From Chloroflexota bacterium (GTDB lineage Bacteria; Chloroflexota; Dehalococcoidia; DSTF01; RBG-16-68-14): a DNA stretch of 12,412 nucleotides. The translations under genes and the position numbers were made by a program. The notes below the pieces were generated by a model that worked only from the letters and a program-made list of their open reading frames with translations, ran no database searches and had not been told where the DNA came from. This document shows positions 2,035 to 11,963 of this stretch, piece by piece. The stretch spans positions 1 to 12,412 of the forward strand of contig JADFNZ010000037.1 in the NCBI GenBank assembly GCA_022563135.1, written 5' to 3'. Each line of letters begins with the position of its first letter. Position 1 is the first letter of the stretch.

Positions 2035-3798
2035 ATGACACCAGCCGAATTTGTCCGCAAATGGGAAGCCTCTGCCGGGAAGGAGGCAGCTTCGTATCAA
2101 GAGCACTTCGGCGATCTCTGCCGGCTGCTGGGCGAAAAAACGCCGAATGAGGAAGATCCTAACGGAACCTACTACGCCTTCCAGAAGGGCGCTAAGAAGC
2201 CTGACGGAAACGGCTTCGCCGATGTCTGGCTCGACAAGCACTTCGCCTGGGAATACAAGACCAAGAAGAAGCACAAGACGCTTCGGGACGCGTACAAGCA
2301 AGTGCAGACGTATCGTGAAGCTCTGCGCAATCCCCCGCTGCTGGTTGTCTGCGACTTCGACCGTTTCGAGGTTCATACGAACTGGACATACACCGAGAGT
2401 TGGGTCTACCGATTCCAGAATCCGGAAATCCTTTCTGGCGAGCCGGTACAGGTAGAGACAATATCCGGCGGACCGGCGAAAGGCGCTCCATCGTTCAATC
2501 CACTTCAAGTCCTCAAGGCGCTCTTCGAGGATCCTGAACGTCTCAGGCCACAGCGGACTACAGACGAGATCACCAAAGACGCGGCCAAACTCTTCGGAGA
2601 GATCAGCGAATGGCTGCGGAAGTGGAAGGTGGAGGACATGCGCATCGCTCGGTTCATCACACGTATGATGTTCTGCATGTTCGCCACCGATGTTGGCCTT
2701 CTACCGCGCGAATCGTTCTCCGAAGTGATCGCCGTGCACAAGAACAGCGGCGACAACACGGCATTCAGAAAGCGCTTGTCTGAATTGTTCGGTGTCATGA
2801 GGGATGGCGGCGAATTCCTCATGCACGAAATACCCCACTTCAACGGCCACCTGTTTGAGGATGATGATGTACCAGATAAGATCACGACGCAGGAGATTCT
2901 AACGCTGGCCAGGCTTGATGAGCTCAACTGGACCGACGTCGAGCCGTCGATCTTTGGCACATTGTTTGTGCGGATTTTAGATCCCGAGCAGCGCAAGAAA
3001 CTGGGCGCGGTGTACACGTCCCGTGCGGACATTGAGCTCATCGTAGAGCCAGTGCTCATGACGCCTTTGCGGCAAGAATGGGAACGCGTGCGCGAGGAAA
3101 GCGAAGTATTGCTCGATCCGCAGGAAAAGAGAGGTAAAGCAGGAGAGAAGAGAGCGGCATCAATGCTCAGGGAGTTTCACACGCGCCTCGCCGACATCCG
3201 AATTCTTGACCCGGCGTGTGGGTCCGGGAACTTCCTCTACGTGTCGCTCGCGCTGCTAAAGGCGTTGGAGAAGGAGGTCCTGGCTTTCGCAGGACTGCAT
3301 GGCGTCTCTCTCAACCCACGCGTCCACCCGCGCCAGCTCTATGGAATCGAGACCAACCCGTACGCGCACGAGCTTGCCTCCATCGTGATCTGGATTGGCT
3401 ATCTGCAGTGGAAGCATCGCAATGTCATGCCACTGGACGACGAGGAGCCCATTCTCGAGCCCCTCGATCAGGTTCACCTTATGGATGCTGTCTTAGACGG
3501 CACTGGAAAGCGCGCCACCGAGCCGGAGTGGCCTGAAGTGGACGTAGTCGTAGGCAATCCGCCGTTTGTTGGTGGGAAGAAGCTGCGAAAGGGTCTTGGA
3601 GATAGCTACGTTGACAGGCTGTTTGAAGTGTGGGACGGCCGAGTACCGCGAGAGGCAGACTTCTGTTGCTACTGGTTTGAAAAATCGCGTGCAGCCATCG
3701 AGGCGGGACGCGCGAAGCGCGCCGGCCTGCTGGCCACGCAAGCCATCAGGGGCGGAAAGAACCGGGCGGGTTCTGGAGCGGATCAAGGAAACGGGTGA
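2035..3798 (+). CDS. MmeI-like RM enzyme, 5' fragment: nuclease and methylase core
   Basis: 587 codons, of which the last 10 (after Arg577) are out-of-frame residues ending at TGA 3796-3798. The N-terminal nuclease has Asp63 followed by E73-Y-K75 (GFADVW and WEYKTKKK), the D-X9-EXK site of the MmeI family (D70, E80, K82 there). A mainly helical connector covers roughly 150-330. The methylase begins with a segment including LGAVYTSRADIELIVEPV (near 323-340), then SAM-binding motif I DPACGSGNF at 392-400 and catalytic motif IV NPPF at 508-511, marking an N6-adenine methylase. The ATG at 2035 is the first in-frame start after the -10 box. The same frame contains no other stop. By itself this piece could bind SAM but lacks the part that reads the DNA target. 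Confidence 0.82.
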   Translation: MTPAEFVRKWEASAGKEAASYQEHFGDLCRLLGEKTPNEEDPNGTYYAFQKGAKKPDGNGFADVWLDKHFAWEYKTKKKHKTLRDAYKQVQTYREALRNPPLLVVCDFDRFEVHTNWTYTESWVYRFQNPEILSGEPVQVETISGGPAKGAPSFNPLQVLKALFEDPERLRPQRTTDEITKDAAKLFGEISEWLRKWKVEDMRIARFITRMMFCMFATDVGLLPRESFSEVIAVHKNSGDNTAFRKRLSELFGVMRDGGEFLMHEIPHFNGHLFEDDDVPDKITTQEILTLARLDELNWTDVEPSIFGTLFVRILDPEQRKKLGAVYTSRADIELIVEPVLMTPLRQEWERVREESEVLLDPQEKRGKAGEKRAASMLREFHTRLADIRILDPACGSGNFLYVSLALLKALEKEVLAFAGLHGVSLNPRVHPRQLYGIETNPYAHELASIVIWIGYLQWKHRNVMPLDDEEPILEPLDQVHLMDAVLDGTGKRATEPEWPEVDVVVGNPPFVGGKKLRKGLGDSYVDRLFEVWDGRVPREADFCCYWFEKSRAAIEAGRAKRAGLLATQAIRGGKNRAGSGADQGNG

Positions 3799-4912
3799 CA
3801 TCTTCTACGCGCAGGCTGACCGCAAATGGGTACAGGACGGTGTTGCCGTCCGCGTGTCCATGGTCGGCTTCGATGACGGGAGCCAGACTCAGAGATTCCT
3901 GAATGAGAACAAGGACGACAGACCTGAGCACGCCTTCGCCCGGGCGCGCTCCGTGGAGAAGATCAACGCAAATTTGACCTGGCAGATAGATCTGACCAAA
4001 GCACGGCGATTGAAGGAGAACGTCAGTATCTCGTTCATGGGCGACACCAAGGTCGGCCCTTTCGAGATACCGGAGCACGTTGCGAAGCGATTTCTAGATT
4101 CGCCTAATCCCCACGGAAAGCCCAATAGCGATGTAGTTAGACCCTGGGTGAACGGAGATGACCTCACCAGCAGGCCAAGGAACATGTGGATCATCGATTT
4201 CCCGCCAGGCATGAGCGAGAGTGAAGCGGCCTTCTACGAAGCGCCTTTCGAATATGCGAAGGAGCGAGCCAAGGACGTGCACGAAGCCAAGGGTGTGCAC
4301 AAAGAGAGTAGAAGACATACTTACGCCACAAGTTGGTGGATTCATGGCCGGCCTCGACCGGTGATGAGACATGCTCTTATAGGCCTACAACGGTACCTTG
4401 CAACACCTCGTGTAACGAAACACCGCCTCTTCGCTTGGTTGCCCACACGTGTTCTCCCCGACTCTGCGTTAATCGCATTTGCGCGTGAAGATGACTACTT
4501 CTTCGGTGTGATGCATTCACGTGTGCATGAACTTTGGGCGAGAGGAACTGGTACTCAGTTGAGGGAGGCTGCGAGCGGATTTCGTTACACGCCATCTTCC
4601 TGTTTCGACACATTTCCATTCCCGATGCCCAGCGCTGAGCAAGAGGAAACAATCGCAGTGGCGGCAAAGGAGCTGAATGAGCTGCGCGAGACCTGGCTGA
4701 ACCCCAAAGGCCTTGTGAGCGACAAGGACCTGAAGAAGCGCACGCTGACCAATCTTTATAATGAGCGTCCTACCTGGCTGGACAACGCGCATAGGCAGCT
4801 CGACCGGGCCGTGCTGGCAGCGTACGGCTGGCCGAAAGACATGGATGACGCGGAATTGCTGAAGAACCTCCTAGGCCTCAACCTAGAGCGGGAACCGGCT
4901 GGGGCATCGTAG
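3767..4912 (+). CDS. MmeI-like RM enzyme, 3' fragment: rest of methylase, target recognition, C-terminal domain
   Basis: From 3767 to the TAG at 4910-4912 the second frame carries 381 residues of the same enzyme. Visible family segments are RVLERIKETGDIF, GVAVRVSMVGFDDG, the target-recognition region around PWVNGDDL and RPRNMWIIDFPPG, IATP-like YLATPRVTKHRLF, then the conserved DYFFGVMHSRVHELWA and FRYTPSSCFDTFPFP. The C-terminus is helical and includes LDRAVLAAYGWP. The open frame extends back to 3566, but codons before 3767 overlap the in-frame upstream methylase and are not coding. If this piece were translated alone it would need re-initiation; GTG 3854 or ATG 3860 are the first in-frame options, with no clear ribosome site. 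Codon and base use match the 5' fragment, so the two halves have one origin. Confidence 0.78.
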   Translation, partial: RVLERIKETGDIFYAQADRKWVQDGVAVRVSMVGFDDGSQTQRFLNENKDDRPEHAFARARSVEKINANLTWQIDLTKARRLKENVSISFMGDTKVGPFEIPEHVAKRFLDSPNPHGKPNSDVVRPWVNGDDLTSRPRNMWIIDFPPGMSESEAAFYEAPFEYAKERAKDVHEAKGVHKESRRHTYATSWWIHGRPRPVMRHALIGLQRYLATPRVTKHRLFAWLPTRVLPDSALIAFAREDDYFFGVMHSRVHELWARGTGTQLREAASGFRYTPSSCFDTFPFPMPSAEQEETIAVAAKELNELRETWLNPKGLVSDKDLKKRTLTNLYNERPTWLDNAHRQLDRAVLAAYGWPKDMDDAELLKNLLGLNLEREPAGAS

Positions 4913-6198: not shown

Positions 6199-8229
6199 CT
6201 AGCCGCGCGTGCGCTGGAGCTGGCGCAGGCCGAGCCAGCCGAGGGCTGCCAGAGGCGCCGCCAGCAGTACGCCGATCGCGCCCGCTGACCGGCCACCGCT
6301 AAACGGCCAATCCCAGATACTCTCCGATTCCGGCTTGGGCTCTATGACTTCCTCCGGCGGGTCGTCTACCTGCTCGTTCGGATCGAGGATGACGACAGTG
6401 AAGGAGGCCCGGATATCGTCCTCGGCTCGCCGCCTGATGTTCACCGTGACGGTCCACGTCCCTGGCAGGCTCAGGTTGGCCCCCTCGCCCCCATAGACCG
6501 CGCTCCCAGCGAGCGGCATCTGCAGCCGGGATACCGGCACGTCACCGGACTCGTGCTCGAACTCCAGGCGCACGCCGCCCTGCAGCACTTGACCGATGGA
6601 GCCGAACTCCGCCCCGAGGCCGAGTGAGAATTGGTTCTGCCCTACCTTCGCAGGCTCCACCGTCAGAGCGACGATGAGGGCGCCCGCCTCAACCGCCTCC
6701 TGGAAACGCTCTTCGGGTACTCGTGACTGCTCCGCCAGCGCCGCCGCCTCTTCGGCGCGGGCGGCCGCCTGCTCGGCCGCGTCTGCGGACGTGCGCGGCG
6801 ACTGGAGCTGGATGAGCACCGCGACCGCGACGAGCACCACGACTGCCAGGACAGCCTCCGCTCGCACGGTGTTCACGAGCAGCCGCTGCAGGCGCGCCGC
6901 AGGCGTCGCCTCGCCGCCTGTCGAGGCGTCCCCTTCGCCCGAACCGCCGGCCAATTGCAGCGAAGCCTCGACGACGCGCGGCTGGAGGATGAGCGCGTTC
7001 AGCGCTGCGACCGCGAGCAGCGGCGTCATCGCGCTCATCTTGCCGATGAGGGTCCAGCCGTAGTTTGTGCTCCAGAGCTCGCTCCAGGACGTGAACTGCA
7101 CCAGCGCGTTCAGAACGCCGCTCGTGAGCAGCACGAGTACGGAGACCGCAGCGAGGATCGAGAAGCGGCGGAACGACTCCGCCGCGAACAGCGTACGGGG
7201 GATGCCCTTCAGGTCGTCCAGCCAGCGCGGCATCGCCAGTCCGATATGGATCAACGCGCCCACCCAGAGCGAAGCGGCCACGATGTGGAGCAGGTCGATG
7301 CTGGTCGTCCAGAATGGGCCGTCGCTGGCCGCGGCATGGCTCACCAGCGACTGCGTGAGAAGCACGCCGAAGGAAGCGATCGCGAGGCCGCCCAGGGCGA
7401 TCTCGCTCCGCCGGCCTCGCGTTCTCGCCGCGAAGACCATCGCTACGAGGGCGACCGCCAGCAGCGCCTGCCGCGCGATCAGGTAGCGTCCGGCCCGCGT
7501 GTCTACGAGCAGGTCGTCGGCCTGCCCCAGTCCGCCCAGTCTGCTCGCCTGCGCCAGGAGTTGGACCAGGCTGCCCTCCAGCACGAGGAACGCGGCGATA
7601 GCGCCGGTCACGAGCAGCACGTTGCGCGAGAGGTTCCGCACGGCGGCGTTGGTCTCAGGCGAGAGTGTGCGGGCCGCCGGATAGACGACGAAGAACACGT
7701 AGGCGACGCCGCCCAGCATGACCGCGCTCCCCAGCAGCACCACCCATCTTGCCGTCGACTCAAGCGTGGACGGATTCTCCGAACCGATGCCTCCCAGGAA
7801 TGCCGAGGTCTCGACAGGCGCCCCTCCGGGAAGCGCTCCCGCCGGCGTGAGGATGGTGATAGGAAACGAGCCCGACCACGGATGGCCATCGACGGTCGAG
7901 AGATTTCGCCAGATGACGGTGTAGAAGCCGGGCGGCAGCTCCTCTGGCAGGTTGATCCCCATCTCCGTGGAGCTATCGAAGAACTGGTCCCCCAGTGGCA
8001 CCTGTTGGCCGGTCTGGTCCCAGACCTGGATGGTGCTGACGGCCCGTTCGATCGGCTCGCTGAAGCTGATCTCGATCGTCTCCGGGCTCTTCAGGAGTTG
8101 AGCGTTCGGCTGCGGACTCGCGTCGACCTGCACGCCGTGGGCGGCAGCCCGGCCGGGGGTGAGGACGATGACGAGCGTGAGGAGCAGCAGGGCTCCACTC
8201 CCGCCGAGGACCGCGATTCGCTTCGTCAC
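6199..8229 (-). CDS. copper resistance/import protein, CopC-CopD fusion with extra C-terminal domain
   Basis: 676-residue membrane protein. A signal peptide (1-30, ending GRAAA) is followed by His31, which becomes the N-terminal residue of the mature protein. The CopC domain (31 to about 127) has Asp114 and His116 in STVDGHPWSGSF; in mature numbering His1, Asp84 and His86 match the Cu(II) site of CopC (His1, Asp83, His85). A CopD membrane domain (about 160-480) has about 8 helices, including the signature-like DLLHIVAASLWVGALIHIG. An Ala/Glu-rich probable coiled coil (near SADAAEQAAARAEEAAALAE) leads to a beta-rich extracytoplasmic domain resembling YtkA-like proteins (LPGTWTVTVNI) and a last C-terminal helix. 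The likely role is periplasmic or outer-face Cu(II) binding and transfer across the membrane. The start is GTG at 8229 with only a weak purine tract upstream. It is divergent from the His-rich gene, suggesting joint control. Confidence 0.88.
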   Translation of the reverse strand: MTKRIAVLGGSGALLLLTLVIVLTPGRAAAHGVQVDASPQPNAQLLKSPETIEISFSEPIERAVSTIQVWDQTGQQVPLGDQFFDSSTEMGINLPEELPPGFYTVIWRNLSTVDGHPWSGSFPITILTPAGALPGGAPVETSAFLGGIGSENPSTLESTARWVVLLGSAVMLGGVAYVFFVVYPAARTLSPETNAAVRNLSRNVLLVTGAIAAFLVLEGSLVQLLAQASRLGGLGQADDLLVDTRAGRYLIARQALLAVALVAMVFAARTRGRRSEIALGGLAIASFGVLLTQSLVSHAAASDGPFWTTSIDLLHIVAASLWVGALIHIGLAMPRWLDDLKGIPRTLFAAESFRRFSILAAVSVLVLLTSGVLNALVQFTSWSELWSTNYGWTLIGKMSAMTPLLAVAALNALILQPRVVEASLQLAGGSGEGDASTGGEATPAARLQRLLVNTVRAEAVLAVVVLVAVAVLIQLQSPRTSADAAEQAAARAEEAAALAEQSRVPEERFQEAVEAGALIVALTVEPAKVGQNQFSLGLGAEFGSIGQVLQGGVRLEFEHESGDVPVSRLQMPLAGSAVYGGEGANLSLPGTWTVTVNIRRRAEDDIRASFTVVILDPNEQVDDPPEEVIEPKPESESIWDWPFSGGRSAGAIGVLLAAPLAALGWLGLRQLQRTRG

Positions 8230-8244
8230 CTGCGCCTAGCTCTC

Positions 8245-8272
8245 TTGACTTCCCCGCTCAGTGAGGTAAGAT
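8245..8272 (+). promoter_or_regulatory. sigma-70-type promoter for the His/Trp-rich membrane protein gene
   Basis: TTGACT (8245-8250) and TAAGAT (8267-8272) are 16 bases apart, each close to consensus. Transcription would start near 8279, leaving a leader of about 37 bases that ends in a GGGAG ribosome site at 8303-8307, 8 bases before the ATG at 8316. Confidence 0.65.
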
Positions 8273-8273
8273 A

Positions 8274-8285
8274 TCAGCACGCTGA
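8274..8285. promoter_or_regulatory. palindrome at the predicted transcription start, possible operator
   Basis: TCAGC (8274-8278) and GCTGA (8281-8285) form a perfect inverted repeat with two bases between them, straddling the predicted start at about 8279. It lies between the two divergent genes, where a copper- or redox-responsive regulator could act on the plus-strand promoter. The regulator is unknown. Confidence 0.3.
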
Positions 8286-8307
8286 ATCCCGTTCACTTTT
8301 CTGGGAG

Positions 8308-8337
8308 TATATATCATGCCACGGATCGCGCTGTCAA
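8308..8337 (-). promoter_or_regulatory. candidate promoter for the copper gene, overlapping the divergent gene's start
   Basis: On the minus strand there is a perfect TTGACA (plus-strand positions 8332-8337) and TATATA (8308-8313), 18 bases apart. This puts the -35 inside the first codons of the divergent gene and the -10 across its leader end. The copper mRNA would start near 8301 with a leader of about 70 bases. Confidence 0.45.
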
Positions 8338-9359
8338 AGTCCAGCGTTCTCCCGCTGTTGTTCCTCGGCATCGCCGGAGCATTGGTCGTCGCGACCGTGA
8401 CACTGAATACCGTGCTTGAGGGCGACAGCGCCTGGGCGAAGGCGACGGCAGCGGGCGGCCTGGTGGCGACGGTAGCCGCCGCCGCAGTCGTGCTCGCTAC
8501 GGGCCAAGCCTGGGCCAACGGCACAGGGCGTTCGCTGGTCGCGAGCGCGGTCGCCGTCGTCGGCTTGGGCGCGCTTGCGCTGACGATGGTCACCTACATC
8601 GGCGGTGCCAGCGGCGGCGGGTCGAGCATCGCCGCGACGGACATCGCGATCAGTGATGAGGCGCTAGCGCTCTTCCAACAGCAGACAGATAACAGTGTTC
8701 AGCCGCCGGGTTTCTCGCATGATGTCGGTCAGCACCCAACGTTGGGCGAGTTTGCCGCGCTCGACTCGGCGACGCTTCTGCGCAACTCGCCCGGCGGCAC
8801 ACTGCTGCCGACTGAAGTGGACGAGCTCAAGGCGCAGCTCGCAGAGCTGCGGGCGTTCGTGCAGACTGTGAACACGGTTGAGAAGGCACAGGCCGCCGGG
8901 TATCAGTTCACCACGAACGATGTGCCCTTCATGGGGGCCCACCTCCTCAACTTCAACTACGTCTCGGACGGCGTGTTCGACCCGGGCAAGCCTGAAGGCC
9001 TCCTCTTCAGCAAGCTCGACGGCGACGAATGGATCCCGGTCGGCGCGTGGTTCCTGCTGGTGCCCGGCGTCAATCCCGGCGTGACGGAGGCCATACCGCC
9101 GCAGGCGTTCGCCGGCAATCTGGACCTCTGGCATGAGCACCACGGCCTCTGTACCCGCAACAACGTCATCTCAGAGAACAACACCGCCGCGGGTTGCGCG
9201 GAGGACAATGGCAGCTTCATCGGCGACCTGAAGTGGATGATGCACGTCTGGGCGTGGCCGGAGAATGCGGAAAACGTAGATGGTGTCTTCACCTACCTGA
9301 ACTACGGTCTCTTCGAAAAGCAGCAGAACGTCGTGAGCTTCGGCCCGGGAGGGGAGTAG
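8316..9359 (+). CDS. uncharacterised membrane-anchored His/Trp-rich protein, possible metal binding
   Basis: 347 residues; I do not recognise a named family. Three hydrophobic helices fill the N-terminus (about 11-30, 45-63 and 73-95), then a Gly/Ser linker and a soluble domain that should face outside the cytoplasm. A helix near 165-193 (ELKAQLAELRAF) precedes a conserved-looking C-terminal block: VPFMGAHLLNFNY (His209), a repeated pattern of VGAWFLLVPGVNPG, DLWHEHHGLCTRN (His273, Glu274, His275, His276, Cys279), Cys294, and WMMHVWAWPEN (His310). The clustered His, Met, Trp and Cys residues look like metal ligands, and the pair of cysteines could form a disulfide. The start is fixed by GGGAG 8 bases upstream and the good promoter. 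Sharing a divergent promoter region with CopC-CopD makes copper handling the best guess, but this is inference only. Confidence 0.85.
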   Translation: MPRIALSKSSVLPLLFLGIAGALVVATVTLNTVLEGDSAWAKATAAGGLVATVAAAAVVLATGQAWANGTGRSLVASAVAVVGLGALALTMVTYIGGASGGGSSIAATDIAISDEALALFQQQTDNSVQPPGFSHDVGQHPTLGEFAALDSATLLRNSPGGTLLPTEVDELKAQLAELRAFVQTVNTVEKAQAAGYQFTTNDVPFMGAHLLNFNYVSDGVFDPGKPEGLLFSKLDGDEWIPVGAWFLLVPGVNPGVTEAIPPQAFAGNLDLWHEHHGLCTRNNVISENNTAAGCAEDNGSFIGDLKWMMHVWAWPENAENVDGVFTYLNYGLFEKQQNVVSFGPGGE

Positions 9360-9391
9360 CGCAAGCGACCGCGGAATCGATCACGAAACAG

Positions 9392-9421
9392 CAGAGACGC
9401 CGCCGGAAGGCGGCGTCTCTG
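9392..9421 (+). terminator. 13-bp GC-rich hairpin with GGAA tetraloop, probable terminator
   Basis: CAGAGACGCCGCC pairs perfectly with GGCGGCGTCTCTG across a GGAA loop, a GNRA-type tetraloop closed by C-G. It begins 32 bases after the stop of the His-rich gene. No T-run follows (GATCCACCG), so termination would depend on the stem alone or the hairpin may act as a 3'-end stabiliser. Confidence 0.65.
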
Positions 9422-9481
9422 ATCCACCGTGTTTCGCGTCGGGTGATCTCAATCACCGCCCATTCTCTAGCCACGGGATGC

Positions 9482-9508
9482 TACAATAGGCGAACCGGCG
9501 CCTACAAT
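9482..9508 (+). promoter_or_regulatory. tandem TACAAT boxes flanking an inverted repeat, upstream of the glutaredoxin-like gene
   Basis: TACAAT occurs at 9482-9487 and again at 9503-9508, 21 bases apart; each resembles a -10 box. The stretch overlapping and joining them is an inverted repeat, TAGGCG (9487-9492) and CGCCTA (9499-9504) around AACCGG. The downstream box would give a short leader of about 10 bases before the ATG at 9525. No matching -35 is visible for either. Confidence 0.4.
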
Positions 9509-9524
9509 CGATCGGGGGATATGC

Positions 9525-9734
9525 ATGGCCGAGCTGATCATGTACACGCTTCGCACCTGCCCAACCTGCAAACGGGCACGGAGTGACCTTACGGCGGAAG
9601 GCGTCGAGTTCGAGGAGCGGGCGATCGACGATAACCCGCGCTGGTTCGACGAGGCGTCCCTTCTCGCCCTGACCGTGCCGATCCTTGTCCGCGGCGACAA
9701 GGTGGAGGTGGGCTGGAAAGGTGAAAGCGGGTGA
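9525..9734 (+). CDS. small glutaredoxin-like thiol-disulfide protein
   Basis: 69 residues, a minimal thioredoxin fold. It opens MAELIMYTLRTCPTCKRARS with a CPTC redox pair (Cys12, Cys15) after the first strand, a VEFEERAIDDNPRW second strand and turn, and Val51-Pro52 as the cis-proline element. It ends soon after, at VEVGWKGESG, so the final helix of typical glutaredoxins (80-100 residues) is reduced or absent. The start at ATG 9525 is preferred over the out-of-frame ATG at 9521 because GGGGGA ends 5 bases before it. It is probably a cytoplasmic reductant or glutathionylation-type partner; the glutathione-binding residues cannot be judged. It lies 75 bases ahead of the cysteinyl-tRNA synthetase gene on the same strand and may share its transcript. 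A GST N-terminal-like role is possible. Confidence 0.8.
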   Translation: MAELIMYTLRTCPTCKRARSDLTAEGVEFEERAIDDNPRWFDEASLLALTVPILVRGDKVEVGWKGESG

Positions 9735-9809: not shown

Positions 9810-11963
9810 GTGGTGCTCCAGCTCTATGACACGCTGACCAGGACGAAACGGGCCTTCGTCCCCGCGGAGGAGGGTCATGCGCGCATCTATTCGTGCGGGC
9901 CCACCGTCTACCGCGATGTTCACATCGGCAACCTGCGCACTTATCTCCTGGCCGATTGGCTGCGCCGCGCACTGAACGCCGCGGGCTGCACCACGAAGCA
10001 CGTCAAGAACATCACGGACGTCGGCCACATGCGACAGGAGCTGCTCGACCGCGGCGAGGACAAGGTGGTCGCGGCGGCGCTGGCCGCCGGCAAGTCACCA
10101 CAACAGATCGCGGAGGAGTACACAGAATCGTTCCACCGTGCCGAAGCCGCGCTCCAGATCAGGCCCGCCGATACGTATCCGAAGGCCACCGACCACATCA
10201 AACCGATGGTGGAGATGACCGAGCGTCTGCTGGAGCGCGGTCTCGCCTATGAAGTAGACGGCAACGTCTACTTTAGCGTCCAGCAGTTTCCTGACTACGG
10301 CAAGCTCTCCGGCAATACTGGGGAATCGTTGCTGGAAGGCGTGCGCGCGGAACTAGATCCGCTGAAGCGGGATCCGCGCGACTTCGCCCTCTGGAAGGCG
10401 GCGGAACCCGGCCGGGTGATGAAATGGCCCAGCCCCTGGGGCGACGGATTTCCCGGCTGGCACATCGAGTGCTCCGCGATGTCGACGATGCATCTGGGCG
10501 AGACGTTCGACATCCACACCGGCGGCGTCGACAATATCTTTCCCCATCACGAGGACGAGATCGCCCAGAGCGAGGGCGCGCTCGGCCACCAAGTAGTTGG
10601 CTACTGGGTACACGGGCAGCACCTGCTGGTGGACGGCCTCAAGATGGCCAAGTCCACCGGCAATGCGTACACCCTGCCGGACATCGAATCGCGCGGCTTC
10701 AACCCGCTCGCGTTCCGCCTGCTCTGCGCTACGACGCATTACCGGCGCCGGCTGAACTTCACCTTCGACTCGCTCCGTGCGGCGGCCTTCGCGCTGAACC
10801 GCCTGCGGCAAGAGGCGTTCCTCGCGGCGCAGTCTGAGGAGGAAGAAGGGGCGGAGGAGTGGGAGGAGGCGTTCTGGACAGCCGTGAGCGACGATTTGCA
10901 TCTGCCGCGCGCGCTCGCGGCGGCGTGGCGATTGGTGCATTCCGGCGCGCCGCGCGGCGCGAAGGCGCGGCTCCTGCGTCGCTTCGACGAGGTACTCGGC
11001 TTCAACCTGTTCGCGCAGCCGGCCAAGGTTCCCAAAGCGGTTTATGCGCTCGTGCGGGAGCGGCAGGCGCTCCGCGGGCGGCGCGACTTCGCAGGCGCGG
11101 ACGCGCTGCGTGAGCGAATCGCCGCGGCCGGCTTCCACGTGCGCGACACGAAGGACGGGCCACTCATTGTGCCGCTCTTTCCGCCCCCGCCGGAGAAGGT
11201 GGAGGCGCTCCACTCCTCGCGTGACGTGTCGTCGCACCTCGAAGAGCCGGACGCGGTCGATTACAGCGTGGTCCTGACCGGACGCGACGATCTGGAGAAC
11301 GTGCGGCGCAGCGCCGAGGCCGCCCTGCGGCACGCGAAGGGCCATCGCATAGAGCTCATCGTCGTCGATAATGCCTCCTCGGACGGTACGCAGGAGTGGC
11401 TGCGAGAGCTGGCGGCTCGCGACGAGCGGGTGTGCGCGATCCAGTGCGACCACAACCTGGGTACCGCCGCCGCCCGTAACTGCGCCCTCCGGCAGGCGCG
11501 CGGCCGCATCGTCGTCATGCTCGACAGCAGCATCGAGATCGCGGGCGATATCTTCTCGCCCCTCGCTGCGGCGATCGCGGACGATGCCGTCGGCGTGGCA
11601 GGACCGTTCGGCGTGAACACGGACGACCTGCGCGACTTCGAGGACGGCCAAGGGCCGGACGTGGATGCGATCGAAGGGTACCTGATGGCGTTCCGCCGGG
11701 AGCGCATCCGCGAGGTCGGCTTCATGGACGAGAAGTTCCGCTTCTACCGCCACCTCGACCTCGACTACAGCTTCGCCTTCCGCGACCGTGGCTACCGCAA
11801 CCGCATCGTCGCGGACCTGCCGCTCCGTCGCCACGCGCACAGCGACTGGGAGCGTACGCCCCCGGAGGAGCGCGACCGTCTCAGCAAGCGCAACTTCTAT
11901 CGCTTCCTCAAGAAGTACGGCGACCGCACAGATCTATTGCTGGCAGGCGCGAGCAAGTCGTAA
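9810..11963 (+). CDS. cysS: cysteinyl-tRNA synthetase fused to a GT2-type glycosyltransferase-like domain
   Basis: 717 residues in one uninterrupted frame. Residues 1 to about 465 are a complete class I cysteinyl-tRNA synthetase, which charges tRNA-Cys in the cytoplasm: HIGN at 38-41, KMAKS at 278-282, and the zinc ligands Cys29, Cys221, His246 and Glu250, each matching Cys28/Cys209/His234/Glu238 of E. coli. The DALR-type anticodon region and its tail end near GPLIVPLFPPPPEKVE. From about 484 a second domain starts (VDYSVVLTGRDDLENV), with the GT2 nucleotide-sugar loop VDNASSDGT (519-527), NLGTAAARN, VMLDSS (569-574) where a DXD is expected, and a C-terminal GFMDEKFRFYRHLDLDYSF segment. Normal CysRS is about 460 residues, so the extra 240 are an added domain. 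The start is GTG 9810 (GTG 9813 also possible) after AGGAG at 9794-9798. Whether the GT2 part is catalytic is unknown. Confidence 0.9.
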   Translation: MVLQLYDTLTRTKRAFVPAEEGHARIYSCGPTVYRDVHIGNLRTYLLADWLRRALNAAGCTTKHVKNITDVGHMRQELLDRGEDKVVAAALAAGKSPQQIAEEYTESFHRAEAALQIRPADTYPKATDHIKPMVEMTERLLERGLAYEVDGNVYFSVQQFPDYGKLSGNTGESLLEGVRAELDPLKRDPRDFALWKAAEPGRVMKWPSPWGDGFPGWHIECSAMSTMHLGETFDIHTGGVDNIFPHHEDEIAQSEGALGHQVVGYWVHGQHLLVDGLKMAKSTGNAYTLPDIESRGFNPLAFRLLCATTHYRRRLNFTFDSLRAAAFALNRLRQEAFLAAQSEEEEGAEEWEEAFWTAVSDDLHLPRALAAAWRLVHSGAPRGAKARLLRRFDEVLGFNLFAQPAKVPKAVYALVRERQALRGRRDFAGADALRERIAAAGFHVRDTKDGPLIVPLFPPPPEKVEALHSSRDVSSHLEEPDAVDYSVVLTGRDDLENVRRSAEAALRHAKGHRIELIVVDNASSDGTQEWLRELAARDERVCAIQCDHNLGTAAARNCALRQARGRIVVMLDSSIEIAGDIFSPLAAAIADDAVGVAGPFGVNTDDLRDFEDGQGPDVDAIEGYLMAFRRERIREVGFMDEKFRFYRHLDLDYSFAFRDRGYRNRIVADLPLRRHAHSDWERTPPEERDRLSKRNFYRFLKKYGDRTDLLLAGASKS

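Follow-up and report, generated by a model that had tools for sequence, protein, structure and literature searches.

The window, a stretch of 12,412 nucleotides from a Chloroflexota contig, holds a single open frame in which a cysteinyl-tRNA synthetase (CysRS), its anticodon-binding domain (CysS_C) and a glycosyltransferase family 2 (GT2) domain follow one another (Table 1). The first-pass annotation had described a CysRS joined without a stop to about 235 residues of a GT2 fold. This description was confirmed for residues 483-717, together with the VDNASSDGT loop that it had named. Elsewhere in the window, an MmeI-like restriction-modification gene (2035-4912) is split over two overlapping frames of 587 and 448 aa and looks frame-broken. 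Its Pfam order is MmeI N, helicase spacer and methyltransferase, then the TRD and C-terminal domains. A 347-aa protein with a hydrophobic N-terminal region, encoded at 8316-9359, has no Pfam or NCBIfam match.

Table 1. Features of the CysRS-GT2 fusion gene in the window (residue numbers refer to the encoded protein).
Feature	Position	Strand	Basis
CysRS-CysS_C-GT2 fusion gene, 717 aa/codons, GTG start, stop included	9810..11963	+	Open frame, Pfam, whole-protein search
CysRS class I catalytic domain, residues 16-325	9855..10784	+	Pfam PF01406, 8e-93; fold match to CysRS structures
HIGN (HIGH-type) motif, residues 38-41	9921..9932	+	Sequence; H38, G40, N41 invariant
KMAKS (KMSKS-type) motif, residues 278-282	10641..10655	+	Sequence, alignment
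CysS_C anticodon-binding domain, residues 407-449	11028..11156	+	Pfam PF23493, 4e-6, 27.3 bits (cut-off 23)
Predicted G34 readers R422, F427, D431 (E. coli R427, W432, D436)	11073..11102	+	Alignment to 1li5; contacts from PMC12684709; conservation
GT2-family GT-A fold domain, residues 483-700	11256..11909	+	Pfam PF00535; structure model and structural matches
Nucleotide-sugar loop VDNASSDGT, residues 519-527	11364..11390	+	Sequence; D520 in 169/181 fused rows
Atypical motif D572-S-S574-I-E576, at the place of DxD	11523..11537	+	Row conservation
D650, equivalent of the GT2 ED-motif Asp	11757..11759	+	Alignment to K4CP; 181/181 fused rows
H675-x-H677, C-terminal GT2 region	11832..11840	+	H675 179/181, H677 181/181 fused rows

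The fusion protein scores 395.3 bits on the TIGR00435 cysS model, over the cut-off of 340. C29, C221, H246 and E250 are invariant among 65 aligned fused proteins, as are H38/G40/N41 and K278/M279/K281/S282. The four first-named residues are presumably the zinc ligands, as in E. coli CysRS. Pfam, TIGR00435 and the invariant positions agree with the initial assignment as a CysRS with zinc and catalytic motifs. The catalytic motifs are present, and only their wording requires amendment: the letters are HIGN and KMAKS, not HIGH and KMSKS, as in most rows of the CysRS clade to which the protein belongs. The C-terminal part matches the GT2 profile over residues 495-619 (2.4e-20, 73.6 bits, cut-off 23.3) and has a GT-A fold. 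Because synthetases took up the whole-protein Foldseek list, the CysS_C-GT2 module was folded and structure-searched separately.

A search with the full-length protein gave 7997 matches over threshold. Among the 120 matches listed, one of them the window's own protein, all have the Pfam CysRS domain and 119 the Pfam GT2 domain. They are CysRS-GT2 proteins of 636-752 residues, with the exception of one of 549 residues, which is the one without the GT2 domain. Those listed matches that bear a taxon name belong to Chloroflexi/Chloroflexota, Dehalococcoidia or Anaerolineae. The fusion lies in one frame in 33 of 251 Chloroflexota genomes searched: a single match spans the whole protein in 28, and five more (G095, G103, G119, G167, G204) hold both halves within one open frame. 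Large contigs carry it, e.g. in G071 (5.6 Mb) and G143 (5.96 Mb). An assembly artefact or missed stop joining two genes is refuted. No point in its favour was found, and the identical join occurs in relatives of 47-77% identity on many contigs, including ones of 1.07 to 5.96 Mb. Since these contigs are unrelated or large, the join is not an assembly error, and the missed stop or frameshift near 11220-11260 that had been considered is excluded as well. Full-length fusions are common among the homologues and the separate form exists too, so that the two parts are not always separate genes. The fusion is real, the arrangement is non-standard and the GT2 domain is intact enough to matter, as the first reading had it. 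The sequences are already in protein databases, named 'cysteine--tRNA ligase', 'cysteinyl-tRNA synthetase', 'GT2 family glycosyltransferase' or 'hypothetical'. The arrangement itself was not found in the literature: no paper on a CysRS-GT2 fusion turned up in the open-access literature searched, subscription papers and preprints being outside the search. Two variants were seen. One fusion (L079, G204) has no CysS_C, its GT2 part coming directly after the helical domain, which counts against the tRNA-Cys reading developed below. Nine others (L056, L061, L063, L068, L070, L075, L076, L078, L080) end in a His-rich tail (HEHKHWPDHSHTHTHTHT-like), suggesting metal binding.

On search and tree evidence, the fusion is paralogous to another CysRS of its genome. 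Re-searching 21 fused genomes with a canonical CysRS profile revealed a further CysRS-like gene in 20. The match reaches the C-terminal domain in 19 of these and covers positions 16-405 plus a contig-edge piece in G007. In the remaining genome, G132, the fusion was the only CysRS seen; completeness is not given for this or the other genomes. All 40 fused rows form one clade (support 99/95) in an 84-row CysRS tree, which was midpoint-rooted and built without L082, L083 and duplicate loci. This clade is nested in a Chloroflexota clade of 51 rows (100/98), designated type B, which clusters with CPR and Clostridia sequences and is separate from the E. coli and canonical Chloroflexota CysRS. Deep-branching unfused type-B CysRS with KMARS for KMAKS (L090 in G135, L091 in G071) occur in genomes that also hold a fused copy. 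Many of the genomes contain yet another CysRS-like gene, the third, which encodes about 380-420 aa and lacks CysS_C (L040, L041, L044, L219, L222, L223, L226); three that were scanned reached 362-374 bits on the MshC model, under its cut-off of 485.

The paralogy in 20 of 21 fused genomes might mean that the additional CysRS serves a second tRNA-Cys species or a recoded codon and that the GT2 domain is incidental. A precedent is the variant CysRS*, which inserts Cys at UGA (PMC9437257). A pattern search for tRNA-Cys, using one pattern to which 8 of 50 genomes gave no match, found a single tRNA-Cys-like site in 17 of the 21 fused genomes; G249 had three, G334 two, and G132 and G126 none. All 14 loci checked were tRNA-Cys(GCA). 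With mostly a single site per fused genome and only tRNA-Cys(GCA) at the checked loci, a dedicated second tRNA-Cys is unlikely and was rejected as the main explanation; the extra-CysRS reading as a whole has hardly any probability left.

CysS_C and GT2 also occur together outside the fusion. A module search detected the pair in 119 of 400 Chloroflexota genomes, often as a free-standing protein some 300 residues long; fused and free forms coexist in several genomes. The free-standing form is also present in Actinomycetota, with at least two named entries (P0270, Solirubrobacterales; P0317, Actinomycetota). A tree of 58 module rows joins the fusions to free-standing proteins from five large genomes (6.6-11.3 Mb; support 90/96), and two other free-standing groups branch separately. 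Judged by this distribution, CysS_C plus GT2 is a module in its own right, either fused or free-standing.

The module tends to accompany type-B CysRS. The latter was found in 96 of 400 genomes, 92 of which have the module; the module alone occurs in 27 and neither in 277 (Fisher p 4e-60, a value inflated because the genomes are related, and dependent on the score boundary). Type B was assigned from roughly 500 bits upwards on the A3 profile, and three partial matches (G235, G352, G364) were added by hand; the boundary is a choice, as A3 scores continue below it, from 493 bits down. Four type-B genomes lack the module, which counts against the reading preferred here: the gene of G239 runs into a contig edge, and G009, G014 and G268 are genuine exceptions on the evidence seen. 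The 27 module genomes (of 119) without type-B CysRS by score also count against it. At least two are truncated or fused-length cases, with the module in a fused-length frame in G264 and a partial type-B match in G110; G142, G345 and G206 combine the module with a single canonical CysRS only. A free-standing module lies convergent with an unfused type-B CysRS in G118, G198, G214, G284 and G390. The frames are 2-25 bases apart in four of these and about 0.8 kb in G198 (stop codons excluded). These are 5 of 23 standalone loci examined, a non-random set in which three had entered via their CysRS and 20 were hand-picked.

The anticodon reader persists in both forms of the module. In E. coli CysRS, Arg427 and Asp436 form hydrogen bonds to G34, and Trp432 stacks on it (Hauenstein 2004, as cited in PMC12684709). 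R422, F427 and D431 of the window protein align with these residues in 1li5, Trp being replaced by Phe. Conservation was assessed on 389 profile matches, reduced to 366 distinct rows of at least 200 residues, comprising 181 fused and 185 others. Seventy of the latter were removed as probable fragments; the 115 standalone-like rows that remained may still include pieces of fusions. Among fused and standalone rows, respectively, R422 is conserved in 177/179 and 105/105, D431 in 180/180 and 106/106, and D446 (E. coli D451) in 179/180 and 109/109. An aromatic residue (Y, F or W) occupies position 427 in 175/180 fused and 106/106 standalone rows. That a free-standing GT-like protein keeps the G34-reading residues is best explained by tRNA-Cys binding. 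We infer, as the central step of the argument, that the module binds tRNA-Cys.

The intact reader in the free-standing CysS_C also speaks against a chance fusion of a CysRS to an ordinary glycosyltransferase of the cell envelope or of exopolysaccharides, with no link to tRNA. Such an origin would fit the best NCBIfam matches of the GT part, which are mainly envelope and exopolysaccharide glycosyltransferases and the mycofactocin protein MftF, all far under cut-off. The Pfam-scanned neighbours in the window (M20 peptidase, MmeI, CoA transferase, CopCD, PadR, 3HCDH) form no envelope cluster, and few neighbours are annotated elsewhere. An envelope function without tRNA link is considered improbable. 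Across 29 loci (28 with fusion or split pair, and the window), no conserved operon was detected, a point against the preferred reading; no neighbour is common to more than six, and most are unannotated. A YqeY gene adjoins the fusion in six loci by blast count, and a gene with a LON-substrate domain is present in the same six (two scanned in each case). A Peptidase_S51 gene follows the fusion in L106, and genes of like size and match count are found in L104 and L107. The neighbours of standalone modules vary by clade: SBP_bac_5/Peptidase_MA_2/DUF881, NTP_transferase/gamma-glutamyltranspeptidase/Peptidase_M3, or carboxyl transferase/ETF.

The putative active site of the GT domain is conserved but atypical. 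D520, D572, E576, D650 and H677 are near invariant in fused and standalone forms. At position 574, 171/181 fused and 106/115 standalone rows have Ser and no row has Asp, so that the DxD motif is replaced by DxSxE. D650 aligns with the GGED segment of K4CP; the Glu of the ED motif is not kept. The Asp at the ED-motif place, which we take to have the role of its K4CP equivalent, and the C-terminal His are present in every fused row. The site is degenerate in a few lineages: residue 572 is Gly in two fusions (L035, L036), and most of the GT site is gone from the free-standing proteins of G221 and G319, which retain CysS_C. In 14 pairs, dN/dS was 0.021-0.199 for the CysRS core and 0.013-0.344 for the N-terminal half of GT2; the C-terminal half gave 0.017-0.188 (13 pairs; one saturated). 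These low ratios indicate that both halves are under purifying selection. The N-terminal half evolved faster than the C-terminal half in 11 of 13 comparable pairs.

This faster evolution, the absence of the second Asp of DxD from all scored rows and the persistence of CysS_C where the GT site decays are all consistent with the main rival, a pseudo-glycosyltransferase. Transfer would have been lost, and the domain would serve as a tRNA-Cys-binding or allosteric clamp tuning the paralogous CysRS, perhaps as a nucleotide-sugar sensor. The near invariance of D650, E576, D572, H677 and D520 in most of the family seemingly exceeds what a clamp needs, and the module occurs also without a linked CysRS. 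The pseudo-enzyme is a serious possibility, if less likely than not. The conservation of the ED-motif Asp in every fused row makes us lean slightly towards an active tRNA glycosyltransferase; the missing second Asp and the site losses in L035/L036, G221 and G319 were counted against glycosyl transfer.

The initial proposals for function included a tether of glycosyl transfer to tRNA-Cys and the synthesis of a cysteinyl-sugar thiol. The former is favoured, because the free-standing module still keeps the tRNA-Cys anticodon reader; the latter obtained no specific support. In thiol-glycoside synthesis, the GT2 part would make an amino sugar and the CysRS part would attach cysteine to it, like MshA and MshC for mycothiol. 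MshC is not known to carry an anticodon domain, in accordance with the 413-residue chain of 8hfm. The fusion keeps this domain and reaches only 225.5 bits on the MshC model TIGR03447 (cut-off 485.1). MshA-like genes, all under cut-off, are present in 21 of 21 fused genomes tested, but they are about equally common with and without the module: 27 of 34 genomes that have the module, whatever its form, contain them, as do 36 of 40 that lack it. They are absent from 7 of 13 genomes with free-standing modules only. MshB exceeded its cut-off in 4 of 36 genomes, all four with the module (no module-free control). A mycothiol-type link was rejected on the MshA-like counts. For the thiol reading speak the relatedness of MshC to CysRS (PMC2922099), a gamma-glutamyltranspeptidase gene adjoining the module in L160, and a DinB/mycothiol-S-transferase-family gene abutting the free-standing module at L153 (G221, 7986-9619), in one degenerate lineage. 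A 208-aa gene occupies the matching position in L154. The thiol-glycoside reading is regarded as very improbable.

Three observations go beyond the first-pass annotation: the protein is a second CysRS, no scored row has the second Asp of DxD, and CysS_C plus GT2 is a recurring unit. The best reading is a tRNA-Cys-directed, GT2-derived module. In a second, type-B CysRS, the anticodon-reading C-terminal domain continues into a GT2-derived GT-A domain. CysS_C would dock the module on the GCA anticodon of tRNA-Cys, and the GT domain with its DxSxE site would then most likely move a sugar from a nucleotide-sugar to the anticodon arm; the attached CysRS could charge the same tRNA. The sequences establish the fusion, the paralogy, the free-standing form, the co-occurrence and the conservation of the anticodon reader and of a GT-like site; glycosyl transfer, if any, and its target are, like tRNA binding, what we infer. 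Taken as a whole, this reading is tentative and falls somewhat short of an even chance. The wider notion of a tRNA-Cys-specific bacterial glycosyltransferase family, combining the CysRS anticodon domain with a GT2 fold that has a DxSxE site, free or joined to a dedicated CysRS, with a sugar mark on the anticodon arm and cysteine charging coupled on one tRNA, is rather unlikely as it stands. Current database names hide a domain pairing present in 119 of 400 Chloroflexota genomes and, free-standing, in at least two named Actinomycetota entries. Should the GT act on tRNA, it would represent a bacterial tRNA glycosyltransferase in physical linkage with the cognate synthetase; should it be a pseudo-enzyme, translation would have taken over a sugar-transferase fold. 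Under either reading, the free-standing protein, with its roughly 300 residues, is small and expressible and thus suited to tests.

Compared with known systems, the fusion shares with CysRS (TIGR00435; E. coli, PDB 1U0B) the catalytic fold, the zinc-ligand positions, the motifs in their HIGN/KMAKS form and a CysS_C with G34-reader residues. It differs from the E. coli enzyme in the additional GT2-fold residues, about 235 in number, in being a paralogue and in grouping with CPR and Clostridia CysRS. GT2/GT-A enzymes such as K4CP (2z86), 6p61, PcManGT (6yv7) and GalNAc-T2 share the fold of its C-terminal part; GalNAc-T has DxH. The fusion has DxSxE for DxD, and its GT domain is joined to a tRNA-Cys anticodon domain, whether fused or free. 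The CysRS-like catalytic fold is common to MshC (Foldseek matches 8hfn, 3c8z), from which the fusion is set apart by its low model score and the retained CysS_C. CysRS* and other aminoacyl-tRNA synthetase paralogues also represent a second synthetase in the genome; CysRS* is described as having no anticodon domain, whereas the fusion keeps this domain and adds GT2 (PMC9437257). The queuosine-tRNA galactosyltransferase QTGAL/B3GNTL1 acts in animals on an anticodon nucleoside, the queuosine of tRNA-Tyr (PMC12518689, PMC11705514). The queuosine tRNAs named there are those for His, Asn, Tyr and Asp (PMC12518689), and tRNA-Cys is not among them. The likeness, drawn from published descriptions, is a glycosyltransferase that acts on an anticodon nucleoside.
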